Shown piece by piece: positions 2,959 to 23,957 of a stretch of 64,000 nt of DNA; within the stretch, counting starts at the first letter, position 1, and every line of letters begins with the position of its first letter. The notes under the pieces were generated by a model, which saw only the letters and a list, made by a program, of their open reading frames with translations, did not search any database and was not told the origin of the DNA. The DNA lies in contig NZ_BNAU01000005.1 in assembly GCF_014653945.1 (NCBI RefSeq), positions 310,001 through 374,000 on the forward strand, given 5' to 3'. Source of the DNA: Amycolatopsis deserti. Lineage in GTDB: Bacteria > Actinomycetota > Actinomycetes > Mycobacteriales > Pseudonocardiaceae. The position numbers and the translations under genes were made by a program.

Positions 2959-4113
2959 TCAGGTCGTGGTGACCGGATCGCCGCTGAGGAACGTCCGCAG
3001 CCGGGCGCCCAGCAGGTCCCACCGCCACTGCTCGGTGACCCAGGTCCGGCCGGCGGCGCCCATCTTGCGCGCACGGGACGGGTCGGTGAGCAGCGGGGTG
3101 AGGGTCTCGACCAGCTGGTGGACGTCGCGGCCGTTGACGACGTGGCCGGTCACCTCGTCGAGGACCGTCTCCGGCGCGCCACCCGAGTTGCCCGCGACGA
3201 CCGGCAGACCCGTCGCCGAGGCCTCCAGGTACACGATGCCGAGGCCCTCCACGTCCAGCCCCTTGCCGCGGGTGCGCGCGGGCATCGCGAAGACGTCCCC
3301 GGCGGCGTAGTGCGCGGGCAGCTCCGGCCACGGCACCGAGCCGGTGAAGACGACGTCGGCGGCGACGCCCCGCTCGTCCGCGAGCCGTTCCAGCGACTTG
3401 CGGTACGGACCACCGCCGACCAGCAGGAGCGCGACGTCCGGGACCCGGCGGCGCAGTTCGGGCAGGGCGTGGATGAGCATGTCCTGGCCCTTGCGCGGCA
3501 CGAGCCGGGACACGCACACCACGGTCGGCCGGTCGCCGAGGCCGTGCCGGGCGCGGATCTCGGCGCGGGCGGCGTCGTCCGGTTTGAACACGTCCGGGTC
3601 GACGCCGGGCGGCAGCAGTTCGAGCCCGGCGGACGGGCCGAACGCCGACGCGAACCGGCCGCGGGTGTACTTGCTGACGTAGGTGATCACGTCGGTGGTG
3701 TCGCCGATGCGGCGCAGCGCCTGGCGGGCCAGCGGCAGCATCGACCAGCCGACCTCGTGCCCGTGGGTGCTCGCGACCACCCAGTCCGCGCCCGCGGCCC
3801 GCAGCGGCTGGGCGAGCAGCGCCAGCGGCGCGGCGGCGCCGAACCAGACGGCCTGGCAGTCGTGCGCGCGCAGGATGTCCTTGGCGCGGCGCAGCACGTC
3901 CGGGGTGGGCAGCATGAGCGAGGTGGGGTGCCGGACCACCTCGAACGGCGCGGCGGCGTCGAACTCGGGGTGCGAGCCGGAGGGCTTGTCCCAGGAGGGT
4001 GCGTAGACGACGAGCTGGTCCGGCGGCAGCAGGCGCGCGAAGGAGTTCAGGTAGTTCTGGATCCCCCCGGGCCGCGGCGGGAAGTCGTTGGTCACCAGCA
4101 GGGTCCGAAGCAC
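2959..4113 (-). CDS. pimB: GDP-mannose-dependent PIM mannosyltransferase PimB'
   Basis: A 384-residue GT4-family retaining glycosyltransferase with two Rossmann domains. In actinobacteria PimB' transfers the second mannose from GDP-mannose to phosphatidylinositol monomannoside on the cytoplasmic face of the membrane, early in PIM/lipomannan synthesis. The N-terminus LLVTNDFPPRPGGIQNYL, the central THGHEVGWSMLP, the VSRLVPRKGQD donor-domain start and the late EGLGIVYLEASATGLPVVAG (E-x7-E motif) match the mycobacterial PimB' (Rv2188c) as I remember it almost segment by segment. The GTG start follows the ripC terminator, so it probably has its own promoter. Its position next to a RipC-like gene matches the M. 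tuberculosis order. Confidence 0.9.
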   Translation of the reverse strand: MLRTLLVTNDFPPRPGGIQNYLNSFARLLPPDQLVVYAPSWDKPSGSHPEFDAAAPFEVVRHPTSLMLPTPDVLRRAKDILRAHDCQAVWFGAAAPLALLAQPLRAAGADWVVASTHGHEVGWSMLPLARQALRRIGDTTDVITYVSKYTRGRFASAFGPSAGLELLPPGVDPDVFKPDDAARAEIRARHGLGDRPTVVCVSRLVPRKGQDMLIHALPELRRRVPDVALLLVGGGPYRKSLERLADERGVAADVVFTGSVPWPELPAHYAAGDVFAMPARTRGKGLDVEGLGIVYLEASATGLPVVAGNSGGAPETVLDEVTGHVVNGRDVHQLVETLTPLLTDPSRARKMGAAGRTWVTEQWRWDLLGARLRTFLSGDPVTTT

Positions 4114-4177
4114 GGGCTGGAGACTACTAGGGCGGACGACCGGGTTCGCGGCCCTGTCGGTGCCCCCCGGGAAGACC

Positions 4178-4213
4178 GAGGGGCGGCACCGGCGATGGCC
4201 GGTGCCGCCCCTC
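4178..4213 (-). terminator. Hairpin between ripC and pimB
   Basis: A perfect 16-bp stem (gaggggcggcaccggc and its complement) with a GATG loop, just downstream of the ripC-like stop. On the minus strand it is followed by a short T/C-rich stretch (gguctucccg-like), so it fits a terminator for the ripC-like gene. Confidence 0.7.
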
Positions 4214-4227
4214 GTCGTGCGGTGAAC

Positions 4228-5283
4228 TCAGCTCAGCGCGACGCGCCGGGCCGAGACGTAGTTGTTCTGCAGCGGCGAGATCTTGACGACGTCCCCGGTC
4301 TCGGGGGCGTGCACCATCTTGCCGTCGCCCAGGTAGATGCCCACGTGGTGGATCGGCGAACCGAAGAACACCAGGTCGCCGGGCTGCAGCTGGGCCCGCG
4401 AGACCGCGACCCCGGCCGTGGCCTGCGACTGGCTCGTGCGCGGCAGGGTGATGCCGGCCTTGCCGTAGGCGTACAGGGTCAGGCCCGAACAGTCGAACGA
4501 GCTGGGACCGGTGTCGCCCCAGCCGTACGGGCTGCCGAGCTTGCTCAGCGCGACGTCGATCGCCGTCTGGGCGGCCGCCGTCGGGGCCGGCACGTTCGGC
4601 GCGTTGCCGCCGGTGTCCTTCTGCGCGGCCCGCTCGGACGCGGTGAGCCGCTGACGCACCTGGTCCAGCTGGTCGAGCTGGGCCTGCAGGGCGGCCTGCC
4701 GCGCGTGCAGGTCGTTCAGCAACGTCGCGGCCGCATCCTTGGCGGCCTGCGAACGTGCCTGGGCGTCGGCTGCCGCCGCCTGGGCGCCGGCCGCCGCCTG
4801 GACCGCCGCGTTGTAGTCGGCGAGCGCCTTGTTCTTCTCGTCGGCGAGCACCTCCAGGGCGGAGGAGCGCTCCAGGAAGTCCTGCGCCGAGGTGCCGTTC
4901 AGCAACGCGGACAGCTTGTTGAACTGCACGCCACCGACGAACGAGGCGTCGGCGAACTGGTCGACCACGCCCTGGTACTGCTCCTTCGCGGCCAGCGCCT
5001 GCTGCCCGGCCGCGTTGGCCGCGGCGAGGTCGGCGTTGGCCCGGTCCAGGTCGGCCTGTTTGGCGTCGAGGTCGGCCTGCGCCTGCATGGCTTCCTCGTT
5101 CAGCTGCTCGGCCTGAGCGGCGAGCTGCCGGTACTGCGCCAGCGCGTCCGCTGCGTTGGCGGGCTGCTGGGGGGCGGGGAGGGGGACCGCGCCGGCCGGG
5201 GCCGTGGGGAAACCGCCGACCGCGAGTACCGCGGCGGCGGCGAGGGCTCCTGCGACCACGCGCTTGATGGGTTGCGACTGCAC
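4228..5283 (-). CDS. Secreted NlpC/P60 peptidoglycan endopeptidase, RipC-like
   Basis: A 351-residue exported cell-wall hydrolase, taking the GTG at 5283 that follows an AAAGGAGA site at good spacing. Order of parts: a Sec-type signal peptide (residues 1 to about 32, ending AGA-VPLP), a long helical coiled-coil region rich in Ala/Gln/Asp (about 40-220), a short linker, then a C-terminal NlpC/P60 domain. The catalytic Cys is in FDCSGLTLYAYG (Cys265) and the His in HVGIYLG (His313). These enzymes cut the D-Glu to meso-DAP bond of peptide stems. Size, layout and the pimB neighbour match M. tuberculosis RipC (Rv2190c). The coiled coil probably keeps the enzyme inactive until it is bound by an activator, as in related proteins; that is inference. 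Confidence 0.88.
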   Translation of the reverse strand: MQSQPIKRVVAGALAAAAVLAVGGFPTAPAGAVPLPAPQQPANAADALAQYRQLAAQAEQLNEEAMQAQADLDAKQADLDRANADLAAANAAGQQALAAKEQYQGVVDQFADASFVGGVQFNKLSALLNGTSAQDFLERSSALEVLADEKNKALADYNAAVQAAAGAQAAAADAQARSQAAKDAAATLLNDLHARQAALQAQLDQLDQVRQRLTASERAAQKDTGGNAPNVPAPTAAAQTAIDVALSKLGSPYGWGDTGPSSFDCSGLTLYAYGKAGITLPRTSQSQATAGVAVSRAQLQPGDLVFFGSPIHHVGIYLGDGKMVHAPETGDVVKISPLQNNYVSARRVALS

Positions 5284-18833: not shown

Positions 18834-20768
18834 GTGTGCGGCCTGCTTGGACTGCTGTGTGCCACTGAGAACGACGCGGTCAACGCGCGTGAGGCGGTCG
18901 GCGAAGCCATGCGCTGCCAGCGCCATCGCGGCCCCGACGAGCGCGACACCTGGACCGACGCCGAGGTCGTCTACGGCTTCAACCGGCTCGCGTTCATCGA
19001 CGTCGAGCACGCCCACCAGCCCCTGACCTGGGGTCCGCCGGAGTCGCCGAACCGCTACACCCTCAACTTCAACGGCGAGATCTACAACTACCGTGAGCTG
19101 CGGGAACAGCTGACCGCGGAGCACGGTGCGAAGTTCGCCACAGAGGGCGACGGCGAAGCGATCGTCGCGGCCTACCACTACTGGGGCCGCTCCGCGGTGG
19201 CGAAGCTGCGGGGGATGTTCGCCTTCCTGATCTGGGACGCCGAGGAAAAGGTGATCTTCGGCGCACGCGACCCGTTCGGCATCAAGCCGCTGTTCTACAC
19301 GCACGGGCCGGGCGGCACGGCGTTCTCCAGCGAGAAGAAGTCGCTGCTGGAGCTCTCCGGCGTGCTGGGGATCACCAAGCAGCTCGACCGGACCGCCCTG
19401 CAGCACTACCTGACCCTGCAGTACGTGCCGGAGCCGGAGACGCTGCACACGCGCATCCGCCGCATCGAGTCGGGCACGTCCTTCACCGTCTCCCCCGGCG
19501 GCGCGCCGAAGATCGAGCGCTACTTCTTCCCCGAGTTCACCGCCAAGCCGGTGCGCGGCGCCGCCGAGGCGAAGATCCTGCACGAGCGCATCCGCGACGT
19601 GATGCGCGACTCGGTCGGCAAGCACATGATCGCCGACCCGGACATCACCGTCGGCACCTTCCTGTCCGGCGGCATCGACTCGACCGCGATCGCGGCGCTG
19701 GCCAAGGAGCACAACCCGAACCTGATCGCGTTCACCACCGGGTTCGAGCGCGAGGGCTACTCCGAGGTCGACGTGGCGGCCGAGTCGGCGGCGGCGATCG
19801 GGGTGAAGCACGTCATCCGGACGGTGTCAGCGGACGAGATGATGGAGGCGCTGCCGCTCATCGTCTGGTACCTGGACGACCCGGTGGCCGACCCGGCGCT
19901 GGTGCCGCTGTGGTTCATCGCGCGGGAAGCGCGCAAGCACGTCAAGGCGGTGCTGTCCGGCGAAGGCTCCGACGAGCTGTTCGGCGGCTACACGATCTAC
20001 AACGAGCCGCTGTCGCTGGCGCCGTTCGAGAAGGTGCCCGGTGGCCTGCGCAAGGTGATCGGCAAGGTGTCCGAGCGGATCCCGGAGGGCACGCGCGGCA
20101 AGGACCTGCTGCGCCGCGGCGCGCTGCCGCTGGAGGAGCGCTACTACGGCAACGCCCGCATCTTCCGCGACGACCAGCTGCGCGGGGTGCTGAAGACGTT
20201 CCAGGAAGGCGTCGGGCACCAGGACGTCACCGCCGAGCACTACCGCACGTCGGCGAACTGGGACCCGGTCGCCCGGATGCAGCACGTGGACCTGTTCACC
20301 TGGCTGCGCGGCGACATCCTGGTCAAGGCCGACAAGATGACCATGGCGAACTCGCTGGAGCTGCGGGTGCCGTTCCTGGACGCCGAGGTGTTCAAGGTCG
20401 CGGCCGGCATCCCGCTGGACCAGAAGATCACCAAGGAGACCACCAAGTACGCGCTGCGCCGCGCGCTCGAGGGCATCGTCCCGGCGCACGTGCTGAACCG
20501 GCGCAAGCTGGGCTTCCCGGTGCCGATCCGGCTGTGGCTGCGCGACGAGATGTACGACTGGGCGCGCGGCATCATCGCCGACTCGCAGACCGACGAGCTG
20601 CTGGACAAGCAGGCCGTGCAGCGCCTGCTGGACGAGCACCGGGCCGGCACGCTGGACCACAGCCGGCGCATCTGGGCGCTGCTGGTGTTCATGATCTGGC
20701 ACGGCATCTTCATCGAGCACCGCATCAAGCCGGAGATCCCGGAGCCGGTGTACCCCGTGCGGATCTGA
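18834..20768 (+). CDS. asnB: Glutamine-hydrolysing asparagine synthetase
   Basis: A 644-residue two-domain enzyme that makes asparagine from aspartate, ATP and glutamine. The GTG start places the glutaminase nucleophile at Cys2 (MCGLLGLL) after Met removal. The N-terminal Ntn domain includes RHRGPDE and LNFNGEIYNY; the synthetase domain has the PP-loop SGGIDST and the FTTGFEREGYSE region. Length and context match Rv2201, which in M. tuberculosis also supplies amidation of cell-wall peptide precursors in some studies of this family. That role is not shown here. The next gene starts 104 bases later and is unrelated. Confidence 0.95.
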   Translation: MCGLLGLLCATENDAVNAREAVGEAMRCQRHRGPDERDTWTDAEVVYGFNRLAFIDVEHAHQPLTWGPPESPNRYTLNFNGEIYNYRELREQLTAEHGAKFATEGDGEAIVAAYHYWGRSAVAKLRGMFAFLIWDAEEKVIFGARDPFGIKPLFYTHGPGGTAFSSEKKSLLELSGVLGITKQLDRTALQHYLTLQYVPEPETLHTRIRRIESGTSFTVSPGGAPKIERYFFPEFTAKPVRGAAEAKILHERIRDVMRDSVGKHMIADPDITVGTFLSGGIDSTAIAALAKEHNPNLIAFTTGFEREGYSEVDVAAESAAAIGVKHVIRTVSADEMMEALPLIVWYLDDPVADPALVPLWFIAREARKHVKAVLSGEGSDELFGGYTIYNEPLSLAPFEKVPGGLRKVIGKVSERIPEGTRGKDLLRRGALPLEERYYGNARIFRDDQLRGVLKTFQEGVGHQDVTAEHYRTSANWDPVARMQHVDLFTWLRGDILVKADKMTMANSLELRVPFLDAEVFKVAAGIPLDQKITKETTKYALRRALEGIVPAHVLNRRKLGFPVPIRLWLRDEMYDWARGIIADSQTDELLDKQAVQRLLDEHRAGTLDHSRRIWALLVFMIWHGIFIEHRIKPEIPEPVYPVRI

Positions 20769-20872
20769 GGTGGTTTCTGGGCCGTTCCGGTGAAGCGGCC
20801 CGATTCCGCCCCCACCCACACGGGTGACGCGCTACAACTCCTCGCGGAGACACGTGCCGGCGAGGGGGTCCC

Positions 20873-21811
20873 ATGACGCGACCGGGCAGGTTCGCGCGGC
20901 TGCTGCTGGTCCTCCTGGCCGCCGTGCTGGCGATCACCGGCACCCCGGTCGCGCTCGCGCAGACGACGGCGCCCGCTCCGGCGGGCTGTGCGGCGGAGCA
21001 GGCGGCTCTGGCGTCGGTCCAGAGCCAGATCACCGCCCACAACGCCAAGCCGCACGTGTTCACCCTGCCCAGGCAGGCGGGGGAACTCGCGGCCTACGAC
21101 GCCGAAGCCGCGCAGCTCAACGCCGCCCAGGCCACCGCGATCCAGAACCTGCAGGCGTGCGAGCAGCGCGTCCAGGCGATGGCCCAGGCCCGGCAGCGGG
21201 CGCTGGACGACCTGCTGGACCGCGCGAACAGCGACTACACCCCGGCGCCGCCGGACGCCCAGCAGCTGCGGCGGGTGCGCGAGGCGCGCGACAACCTCGC
21301 CGGCAGCGGCTGGCGCCCGCCCAGCCCCGCCCGGCCCGGGCCCGACGGGCAGTGGAACGTGCCGGAGAACACGCCCCTGCGCGAGCTGTACGACGCCGTC
21401 CGCCGGACGACGCCGCAGTGGCCGTTCCCGAACGTCCGGTTGCAGGGGGCGCCGCGGCCGCGGATCGGCGACCCGGACCCGTCGGGGTACAGCCCGGGCG
21501 GCGCGATCGGCCGGGCACCGGGGCCGCGTGGCGGGCCCAACGTCTCGCCCGACCACATCATCCCGATCGCGCAGATGGTGTACCTGCGCGGGTTCACCCG
21601 GCTCAGCCCGGAGAACATGCTGGCGATCGCGAACTCGCCGCTCAACCTGCAGTGGATGTCCCGGCTCGCGAACAGCGCCAAGAGTTCGAAGAGCATGGGC
21701 GCCGTGGCGAAGGCGGATCCGGCGTGGGCGCAGAGCCAGACCGCGCTGGAACGGAGCACGCTGGCGCGGCTGCAGGACATCATCGACCGGTTGCTGGCCA
21801 ACGGTGGATAG
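20873..21811 (+). CDS. Secreted protein with HNH-like nuclease C-terminus (candidate toxin)
   Basis: A 312-residue exported protein. Parts in order: Sec signal peptide with cleavage expected after ALA at residue 29; a helical region about 40-125 rich in Ala/Gln with Cys39 and Cys96 that could form a disulfide; a Pro/Gly-rich linker about 145-215; and a C-terminal domain starting near 218. That domain has NVSPDHIIPIAQMV (Asp227-His228) and, 40 residues on, LANSAKSSKSMG (Asn267, Lys270, Lys273). The D-H-x-x-P plus N-x-x-K-x-x-K pattern is that of HNH/His-Me-finger nuclease domains found at the ends of polymorphic toxins. ATG with GAGGGGGT site. Nuclease activity is inference. It begins a three-gene unit inserted between asnB and adoK. 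Confidence 0.7.
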   Translation: MTRPGRFARLLLVLLAAVLAITGTPVALAQTTAPAPAGCAAEQAALASVQSQITAHNAKPHVFTLPRQAGELAAYDAEAAQLNAAQATAIQNLQACEQRVQAMAQARQRALDDLLDRANSDYTPAPPDAQQLRRVREARDNLAGSGWRPPSPARPGPDGQWNVPENTPLRELYDAVRRTTPQWPFPNVRLQGAPRPRIGDPDPSGYSPGGAIGRAPGPRGGPNVSPDHIIPIAQMVYLRGFTRLSPENMLAIANSPLNLQWMSRLANSAKSSKSMGAVAKADPAWAQSQTALERSTLARLQDIIDRLLANGG

Positions 21812-21820
21812 GCTGATCAC

Positions 21821-22513
21821 GTGGACGAGTTCGACCTCGACGAAATCGCCGCACAACTCGACGACGAGCACCCGGTTCAGCTCGTCGAGCCGGGAACACC
21901 CGAGGCGGACCGGGTGCCGCCGGGCTGGCGGGCCATCGCCGCCTCCGACGATCCCGCGGCTCGCCGGGCCGCCGCGCTGGCGCTGTGGAACCCCGACTTC
22001 CTCGAGCTGGTCCCGCGGTTCGCCCGCGCCCTGCGGGAGAACCTCGCCGACGTCCGGCTGGCCGTCCTGCGGGGTGACCCGGTGCTGCTCTACCTCGTGC
22101 GCCCGGCCCGCCCGCCCTACACCGTGTGGGTCGGCTGGCACCCGGACACCTTCGGCGCGACACCGCCGAACTGGGCGGCGCTTCCCGCTCCGCTGCGCCG
22201 GTTCCTGCGCGAGGTCCACGCCGGGTTCACCGCCACCGACTGGCAGTCGTTCGGGCCCGTGCAGCCGGCGAGCATGATGTCGTTCGCCGAGTGGGCGGGG
22301 TTCGACGGCCCCATCCCCGGCTGGGACGGCAGCGACGGCCGGATCGCCTCGGACCGGCTGTTCTTCGTCGCGAAGGACGGCGGCCTGCTGCACCACTGCA
22401 CGTCCCCGGACCTCGAAGCCGGGAAGGTCGCCCTGGTCTACGAGGGCGACGTCGAGATCGCGGACTTCGCCCCGGCGCTCGACGAGCTGATGGCCGGGCG
22501 GTTCGACTCGTGA
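21821..22513 (+). CDS. SUKH/SMI1-KNR4-like protein, candidate immunity partner
   Basis: A 230-residue acidic cytoplasmic protein with no signal peptide, GTG start 9 bases after the putative toxin stop. The first part (residues 1-75) is acidic and helical. The rest has features of SMI1/KNR4 (SUKH) folds: VWVGWHPDTFGATPPNW, PLRRFLREVHAGF, SFAEWAGFDGPIPGW, then strands RLFFVAKDGGLLHHC and VALVYEGDVEIADF, and a final helix FAPALDELMAGRF. SUKH proteins are common immunity partners of nuclease toxins, so tight linkage behind a secreted HNH-like protein supports that role. The fold call is by eye and could be wrong. Confidence 0.55.
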   Translation: MDEFDLDEIAAQLDDEHPVQLVEPGTPEADRVPPGWRAIAASDDPAARRAAALALWNPDFLELVPRFARALRENLADVRLAVLRGDPVLLYLVRPARPPYTVWVGWHPDTFGATPPNWAALPAPLRRFLREVHAGFTATDWQSFGPVQPASMMSFAEWAGFDGPIPGWDGSDGRIASDRLFFVAKDGGLLHHCTSPDLEAGKVALVYEGDVEIADFAPALDELMAGRFDS

Positions 22514-22926
22514 GCGCACCCCGCCGGACGAAGATCGTCGTCGCGTCCACCGGCGTCGTACTGGTCCTCGCGATCGGCGCGCTGTTGTTCGTCCTGCTGC
22601 GCACCACCGAGGAGGACCGGGTGGCCGAGGCCGTGGACCGGTTCGTGACCGCCGTCGACACCGAGGACCAGGCGGGGATTCTCGACGCGCTGTGCGGGGC
22701 GGAGGCCGCGAGCCTCACCGGCGACGACGACTTCGACCCGGCCTACAACGGGCACACCTCGGGCTCCCCGCGCGAACGGGAGATCGCCGGGGTCCGGATC
22801 GACGGTGACGTCGCCGCCGCCCGGCTGACCCGGCCGGGTCAGCCGCCGACGACGCTCTACCTGCTGCGGGAGAACGGCGGCTGGAAGGTCTGCGCCCCCG
22901 CCGCCGAGCGGTTCGCGGGAGCCTGA
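22510..22926 (+). CDS. Membrane-anchored extracytoplasmic protein, unknown
   Basis: A 138-residue protein whose GTG overlaps the stop of the SUKH-like gene (GTGA), so translation is coupled. After a basic N-terminus (MSAPRRTK) comes one transmembrane helix (IVVASTGVVLVLAIGALLFVLL), then an outside domain of about 105 residues beginning EEDRVAEAVDRFVTAVDTEDQ. This resembles NTF2-like/DUF4878 lumazine-type accessory domains: helices first, then strands IDGDVAAARLTR and TTLYLLRENGGWKVC. Two Cys could pair outside the cell. The domain could guard against the secreted partner at the cell surface or help its export. It ends 5 bases from the convergent adoK. Confidence 0.7.
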   Translation: MSAPRRTKIVVASTGVVLVLAIGALLFVLLRTTEEDRVAEAVDRFVTAVDTEDQAGILDALCGAEAASLTGDDDFDPAYNGHTSGSPREREIAGVRIDGDVAAARLTRPGQPPTTLYLLRENGGWKVCAPAAERFAGA

Positions 22927-22931
22927 CCCCG

Positions 22932-23957
<1,026 letters not shown>

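Follow-up and report, generated by a model that had tools for sequence, protein, structure and literature searches.

A three-gene cassette of Amycolatopsis deserti predicted to encode a Sec-exported HNH-type toxin, its immunity protein, and a membrane-anchored partner

INTRODUCTION

Many antibacterial nuclease toxins have been studied behind dedicated injection machines. The polymorphic toxin systems surveyed by Zhang et al. in 2012 include, in the available portion of that survey, Sec export, Tox-HNH nucleases with Imm-SUKH partners, and the Imm-NTF2 family (PMC3482391). Sec-exported alarmone synthetases, in the accessible part of the report describing them, include signal-peptide members without adjacent immunity genes (PMC12691689), and Rv0361 of Mycobacterium tuberculosis was found in membrane and surface fractions, according to the excerpt available (PMC2891697). 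Here we describe three adjacent genes, termed genes 1, 2, and 3, in a 64,000-nucleotide stretch of the Amycolatopsis deserti genome (contig NZ_BNAU01000005.1; “the window” refers to this whole stretch). Comparison with related loci indicates that this cassette quite probably specifies a Sec-exported polymorphic toxin, an immunity protein, and an envelope partner. A literature search of titles and abstract openings, with most subscription journals outside its coverage, returned no description of the cassette.

RESULTS

Gene 1 is predicted to encode an exported HNH-type nuclease

The three plus-strand open reading frames (ORFs) were re-found at 20873-21811 (gene 1, 312 aa), 21821-22513 (gene 2, 230 aa, GTG start), and 22510-22926 (gene 3, 138 aa, GTG start), with 9 bases between genes 1 and 2 and a GTGA overlap between genes 2 and 3. 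An earlier note on this DNA had reported the same tight packing between asnB and adoK. Since the arrangement recurs in other genera at other loci, it is not due to chance. Including the window, 18 loci were found that combine the N-terminal module described below (N-module) with the HNH domain.

The gene 1 protein (P0001) begins with a hydrophobic stretch at residues 10 to 26, with a mean Kyte-Doolittle value of 2.46 over 17 residues, followed by A-L-A-Q. On hydropathy alone this start is signal-peptide-like, as the earlier note had proposed, and the signal peptide was placed at residues 1 to 30 (20873..20962) with the cleavage site set by eye. A WXG100 or LXG N-terminus, as in substrates of the type VII secretion system (T7SS, ESX), found no Pfam match in P0001, the start being signal-peptide-like instead. 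Indeed, P0001 gave zero Pfam family matches, including repeat or processing domains, and none near the cut-off in NCBIfam. The N-module follows at residues 39 to 96 (20987..21160) and has the pattern C...HNAKPHxFxxPxQ...AYxAEAxxLN...C; it was delimited from the alignment of 18 homologues and from its occurrence in other proteins. C39 and C96 are the only cysteines of P0001 and are invariant in the 18 aligned homologues, as are H56, N57, and Y75, and the module may form a helical hairpin closed by a disulfide. Homologue comparison further delimited a Pro/Gly-rich middle region with the motif LQGxxRPxxGDxxP at residues 113 to 204 (21209..21484).

In HNH, or His-Me finger, nucleases, the active-site residues H, N, and H/N/K are conserved in that order. 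The same order was observed in the C-terminal domain of gene 1 (residues 205 to 312; 21485..21808), comprising a predicted catalytic pair D227-H228 (21551..21556), a predicted HNH asparagine N258 within NLQW (21644..21646), invariant in the 18 aligned homologues, and a predicted third active-site motif N267xxK270xxK273 (21671..21691). The motifs D-H-x-x-P and N-x-x-K-x-x-K picked out in the earlier note were present as D227-H228-I-I-P and N267-S-A-K270-S-S-K273. All 14 toxin loci having gene 2 retained D227, H228, N258, N267, and K270, while K273 was not always retained. Comparison by hhalign of 17 gene 1 HNH domains with 23 GmrSD_C domains (from 30 loci found) gave a probability of 91 and an expectation value (E) of 1.1e-6 over DHxxP, NL, and NxxK, while five control comparisons gave E values of 0.17 to 0.78. 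The 17-sequence HNH model also scored the GmrSD_C protein L025 at E 4e-6. The HNH alignment (A10) omits L088 and L091 and takes in L089, which matches the middle region (E 7e-6), contains the HNH domain, and lies outside the 18 loci, having no N-module. Similarity to a known HNH family, GmrSD_C, is therefore present at the level of sequence profiles, and the C-terminal domain is most likely an HNH-type nuclease, cutting DNA or RNA. At 3598-4548, L089 also has a degenerate HNH copy (D-R for D-H) with about 180 further residues, adjoining its intact HNH protein.

Gene 2 usually follows the predicted toxin gene and is missing beside toxins with lost catalytic residues

Gene 2 (21821..22513) is predicted to encode a cytoplasmic immunity protein, judging from its position, its loss pattern, and its hydropathy profile, which has no hydrophobic stretch. 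It lies directly downstream of gene 1, the place of a cognate immunity gene in polymorphic toxin systems, at 14 of the 18 loci, and the toxins of these 14 all have intact predicted catalytic residues. Three of the four toxins without gene 2 are damaged at these residues: L088 (H228 to R, N267 to A), L091 (D-H, N267, and K270 all lost), and L029 (K270 to M); the fourth, L094, is intact. The association between gene 2 and intact residues had a Fisher p of 0.005 (18 loci, not corrected for descent). The pattern that the earlier note had named as fatal to its proposal, gene 1 homologues mostly lacking gene 2, was thus not seen. Full-length gene 1 occurred in 3 of 297 genomes of the family, and these were also the 3 with full-length gene 2. 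Where G704 (L102) carries the whole cassette, G675 (L082) has gene 2, with the toxin and gene 3 absent. From this pairing we infer that gene 2 is the immunity gene of the gene 1 toxin, its protective function being predicted. The earlier proposal that gene 1 encodes an exported nuclease toxin of the HNH type, provided with an immunity gene, is supported, at the level of sequence, by the HNH profile match, the residue conservation, and the gene 2 pairing.

A whole-genome search of six genomes failed to detect gene 2 in the genomes of L094, L088, L029, and L089, and in the L091 genome it found gene 2 only at other places. This search can miss distant relatives: in the L090 genome it gave two weak matches on another contig and not the gene-2-like ORF described below. 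At L092, the frame ahead of gene 2 has a start resembling WXG proteins (by reading) and an HNH end that is truncated. The gene 2 protein (P0002) had a single Pfam match, HEAT_2 (E 0.016, below cut-off), and a sequence search of solved structures gave nothing relevant for it. At least three gene 2 relatives in mycobacteria (L078, L080, and L081) are orphans fused to a conserved extra C-terminal domain; the sequence retrieved around them gave no toxin match.

Gene 3 accompanies the toxin gene and encodes a probable membrane-anchored partner

Gene 3 (22510..22926) encodes a protein (P0003) matching NF051431, the Rv0361 family (E 5e-16, 59.2 bits against a cut-off of 37); the 7.7-Mb genome has four matches to this family, one of which is gene 3. 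Hydropathy alone indicates one N-terminal hydrophobic helix (mean Kyte-Doolittle 2.88 at residues 14 to 30), placed as a single transmembrane helix at 22537..22599. A putative NTF2-like domain was assigned to 22615..22902 from the match of the gene 3 profile to the solved structure 3duk (E 0.004), with 3k7c (E 0.013) and PF12893 (E 0.019, below cut-off) behind it, and would lie outside the cell. Within it, C62 is invariant and C128 nearly invariant (17 rows). No Imm-NTF2 profile matched P0003, PF12893 being the only match up to E 10 (HMMER filters on).

The earlier note had raised the possibility that the third gene is a new component, and its company bears this out. Gene 3 was found beside the toxin gene in all 17 testable loci, and 12 of these were outside the five seed loci of the first model; L030 is outside this count, its contig ending about 90 bases after gene 2. 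Fourteen copies lie downstream on the same strand and three are divergent (L029, L099, and L102), and the L096 copy is cut by a contig end. The three toxins with lost catalytic residues (L088, L091, and L029) also have gene 3 beside them. It was not detected near HNH proteins without the N-module (L089 and L090). Among 14 loci combining the N-module with other C-termini, L109 had a weak match 3 kb away. A frame of L022, encoding the PknH_C-like partner described below, matched the second gene 3 model at E 0.0005, which was taken as unproven. Gene 3 as the third component of the cassette is well supported by this company, and it is the novel part of it. In L088, the gene 3 frame has 267 residues before the helix, of which 101 are Pro or Gln.

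Related domains stand behind a probable type VI secretion carrier

A tblastn search of P0001 against plasmids matched two records, both representing the same protein of Rhizobium tumorigenes (WP_161959354.1, pRt932). This protein combines a PAAR-like domain (PF13665, E 3.1e-24) with a subthreshold GmrSD_C match (E 0.048), and its gene is placed after VgrG and DUF2169 genes; because of this domain and this position, it is very likely an effector of the type VI secretion system (T6SS). Its last 120 residues scored 52 bits with the gene 1 HNH profile, and neither a hydrophobic start nor an N-module match was found in it. The next gene matched the gene 2 model at E 1e-4 (best domain 2.6e-4) among 7,699 ORFs, with model positions of about 10 to 91 aligned to this partner. 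In the same ORF set, the model matched the ORF that immediately follows the 1035-codon HNH frame in L090 at E 1.8e-5 and an ORF in a Neorhizobium T6SS island at E 0.0014, the first match outside gene-2-like proteins coming at E 0.33. A profile search of the Rhizobium T6SS locus detected no gene 3. Its presence beside damaged toxins and its nondetection at this locus imply that gene 3 belongs with the Sec-exported version and not with the nuclease/immunity pair as such, and its point of action is probably not the nuclease reaction.

Searching P0002 against plasmids gave zero matches. In a T6SS effector island of Neorhizobium galegae, a gene 2 relative split into two pieces (L162, 4001-4649) is preceded by a GH-E nuclease gene and an ankyrin gene. 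A phage origin of gene 1 was considered and set aside: no match for gene 1 or its HNH domain was confirmed in viral contigs or phage records, gene 2 not having been searched there.

The N-module is shared by proteins with other C-termini

A common N-terminus with exchangeable C-terminal domains is a feature of polymorphic toxins, and the N-module behaves in this way. It was found with other C-termini in 7 of 297 genomes of the family (L018 to L024). The two such proteins scanned were both NS nucleases (PF13930), and a small gene follows at six of the seven loci. The partner of the L022 NS nuclease is a SUKH_6 protein; two other downstream small proteins gave zero matches when scanned. The N-module itself matched no specific Pfam family in the scanned proteins, the only matches over it being to coiled coils. 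All seven genes are preceded by a PknH_C-like gene (by Pfam in two and by mutual similarity of 7e-65 or better in all seven), encoding a membrane protein or lipoprotein that may be another constant envelope partner.

In L105 (3486-4715) and L106 (3883-5454), the N-module is preceded by a WXG-like start (by reading) and followed by another C-terminus; the module is therefore not confined to Sec export. A short exported-looking protein of L104 (4072-4695) consists of the N-module and an acidic tail and is encoded after an FHA/ABC-type gene, perhaps reflecting a nontoxin use of the module.

The cassette occupies a variable site

The cassette is flanked by an asnB-like gene at 18834-20768 on the plus strand and an adoK-like kinase gene at 22932-23921 on the minus strand, genes that we take to be asnB and adoK. 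The adoK-like gene was present in all 19 same-genus genomes. In 16 of them, the 3' ends of asnB and adoK are 55 to 725 bases apart with no gene 1 between, confirming the adjacency described in the earlier note; two (this genome and G187) have the cassette at this site, and one is interrupted by a contig end. The nearest relative, G130, is 99% identical in AdoK and the last 250 AsnB residues and has an 82-base gap with no cassette. Between this genome and G187, synonymous divergence was 0.43 to 0.70 in the cassette and 0.18 in asnB, and the ratios of nonsynonymous to synonymous divergence were 0.43, 0.38, and 0.43 for genes 1 to 3 and 0.12 for asnB. Taken together, the divergence and the presence/absence pattern are consistent with functional genes that have been gained, lost, or exchanged at a single site. 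The leader before gene 1 (20769-20872) contains GCGCTACAACTCCTCGCGG, common to G187, and is a possible promoter.

Elsewhere, Lentzea albidocapillata has the same three genes in unrelated surroundings, and an HNH-domain scan of genome contigs gave four loci (in Lentzea, [Mycobacterium] manitobense, Geodermatophilus amargosae, and Mycobacterium sp. ACS4331). Within the order, profile searches with gene 1 found matches in 9 of 397 genomes; within the family of G484, gene 1 matched 16 of 301 genomes and gene 2 matched 16 of the same 301, many of the matches being partial. The fourth genome matched by gene 2, G062 (E 6.6e-6, residues 87 to 193), was not counted, its match being in frame inside a predicted 511-aa membrane protein; the weak gene 2 matches L084 to L087 were excluded from A8; and L027 is on the same contig as L017 (125,144 bases). 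Gene maps came from a home-made codon-bias caller, with which small genes may be missed. No WXG100 match lies in the window, the nine in the genome being on contigs C2, C3, and C6; other ESX, Rhs, and delivery families were not searched for.

DISCUSSION

Gene 1 likely encodes a toxin with an immunity partner. The protein would carry a signal peptide at synthesis, pass through Sec unfolded, and fold outside, where the N-module hairpin would be closed by its disulfide. Taken up by a susceptible neighbor, its C-terminal HNH domain could then cut nucleic acid. In the cytoplasm, the gene 2 protein would block the HNH domain of toxin that had not been exported or that returned from sister cells. The gene 3 protein would be anchored in the producer membrane with its NTF2-like domain outside, most likely binding the exported protein by a feature other than the nuclease and thereby holding it at the surface, aiding its folding, or shielding the producer.

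Several observations weigh against this account. The 18 gene 1 homologues matched no Pfam nuclease family in hmmscan, and a sequence search of solved structures gave nothing relevant for gene 1. Gene 2 went undetected for L094 and L089, whose catalytic residues are intact, gene 2 relatives stand without a toxin in several mycobacterial loci, and L018, one of the two scanned NS nuclease relatives, has no evident downstream partner. Nor did pairwise identities across 13 full cassettes show gene 2 tracking the HNH domain more closely than it tracks other parts, the Spearman coefficients being weak (0.05 to 0.44) and separating nothing.

The earlier note had called gene 2 SUKH-like, a label that our comparisons did not establish, and the chance that it is a true SUKH-superfamily immunity protein falls a little short of even. 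Such partners are usual for HNH toxins in the consulted part of the polymorphic toxin survey (PMC3482391). Among 21 gene 2 proteins scanned, one (L083) matched PF09346 at profile positions 18 to 112 (E 0.016, 16.3 bits against a cut-off of 25.4), while P0002 and 19 of the 20 others matched no SUKH family, so that no above-cut-off match places gene 2 there. The C-terminal half (residues 112 to 228; 22154..22504) has a weak SUKH-like pattern, LPxxLxxFLxxxHxGF, and was compared with 15 SUKH-set sequences, namely, those of 15 of 16 loci plus one L022 protein after dropping L120, whose extracted stretch was too short. The score of 23.6 (E 0.0037) exceeded all 60 controls (one reversed and 59 column shuffled; maximum 16.3, from the reversed one) and was 22.7 (E 0.0051) with the bad L120 row included, but the probability was only 9, over 29 columns, and the whole-length comparison reached a probability of only 3.5 (E 0.012). 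Moreover, the N-terminal half (residues 1 to 111; 21821..22153), delimited by alignment with the partner of the Rhizobium T6SS toxin and common to both, falls outside the match. The hmmscan and profile-profile comparisons therefore leave a weak resemblance only.

Two further readings were weighed. Gene 3 might be a second, extracytoplasmic immunity protein capturing the toxin at the membrane while gene 2 guards the cytoplasm. NTF2-fold immunity proteins are known (Imm-NTF2, in the part of PMC3482391 available), gene 3 is predicted to be NTF2-like and membrane anchored, and in L094 an intact toxin has no detected gene 2 and a gene 3 overlapping the toxin stop codon. Its retention beside the residue-damaged toxins, and its disappearance with the toxin where gene 2 stays (L082), are the opposite of how gene 2 behaves and make this reading rather unlikely. 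Gene 1 could instead be a secreted scavenging nuclease with no antibacterial role and gene 2 a mere safeguard against leakage; GmrSD_C-domain proteins are indeed common in relatives (33 of 41 genomes, exported and cytoplasmic forms pooled), and the next same-strand gene after L025 is a second HNH-like gene and not a gene 2 relative. We regard this as improbable, given the other C-termini borne by the N-module, with a small gene next in six of seven family examples, the recurrence of the HNH domain and a gene 2 relative behind a T6SS PAAR protein, and the presence or absence of the cassette at one site between near-identical strains.

The account of an exported toxin with immunity and envelope partners can tentatively be extended, at somewhat below even confidence, to an actinobacterial Sec-only delivery unit. 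In such a unit, gene 3 would be an obligate membrane-anchored partner that recognizes the toxin outside the cell independently of the nuclease, as a tether, folding factor, or receptor; the nuclease/immunity pair would be exchanged among carriers of the Sec, T6SS, and perhaps T7SS type; and toxins with a dead nuclease would keep gene 3 for another use. The cassette combines toxin/immunity anatomy with just a Sec-like signal. If it works, the question becomes how the released protein enters an actinobacterial neighbor, and gene 3 is put forward as a testable partner candidate. With related toxin/immunity pairs behind both a T6SS carrier and Sec, delivery routes may be compared directly with one kind of catalytic domain.

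Among described systems, the GmrSD_C (PF07510) HNH proteins share the DHxxPL ... NL ... NxxK layout with gene 1, whereas PF07510 itself matched 0 of 18 homologues in hmmscan up to E 0.1. The R. tumorigenes PAAR/DUF4150-HNH effector has a related HNH domain and a distant gene 2 relative downstream but stands behind VgrG, without a hydrophobic start and with no match to the N-module or gene 3. The Rv0361 family (NF051431) has the transmembrane helix and NTF2-like domain predicted for gene 3, and a literature search for “Rv0361”, covering titles and abstract openings, found no link to toxins. The exported alarmone synthetases, with Streptomyces among their hosts, likewise bear a Sec signal peptide and are toxic in the cytoplasm, but they are a different kind of enzyme, and their signal-peptide members stand without adjacent immunity genes in the accessible part of that report (PMC12691689). 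The Sec-class polymorphic toxins, as set out in the available text of PMC3482391, have in common with the cassette a signal peptide, an interchangeable C-terminal domain, and a candidate immunity gene immediately after the toxin gene. The leader domains given there do not include the N-module, P0001 has no Pfam repeat or processing domain, and, unlike those toxins, the cassette carries a constant third gene predicted to encode a membrane NTF2-like protein.

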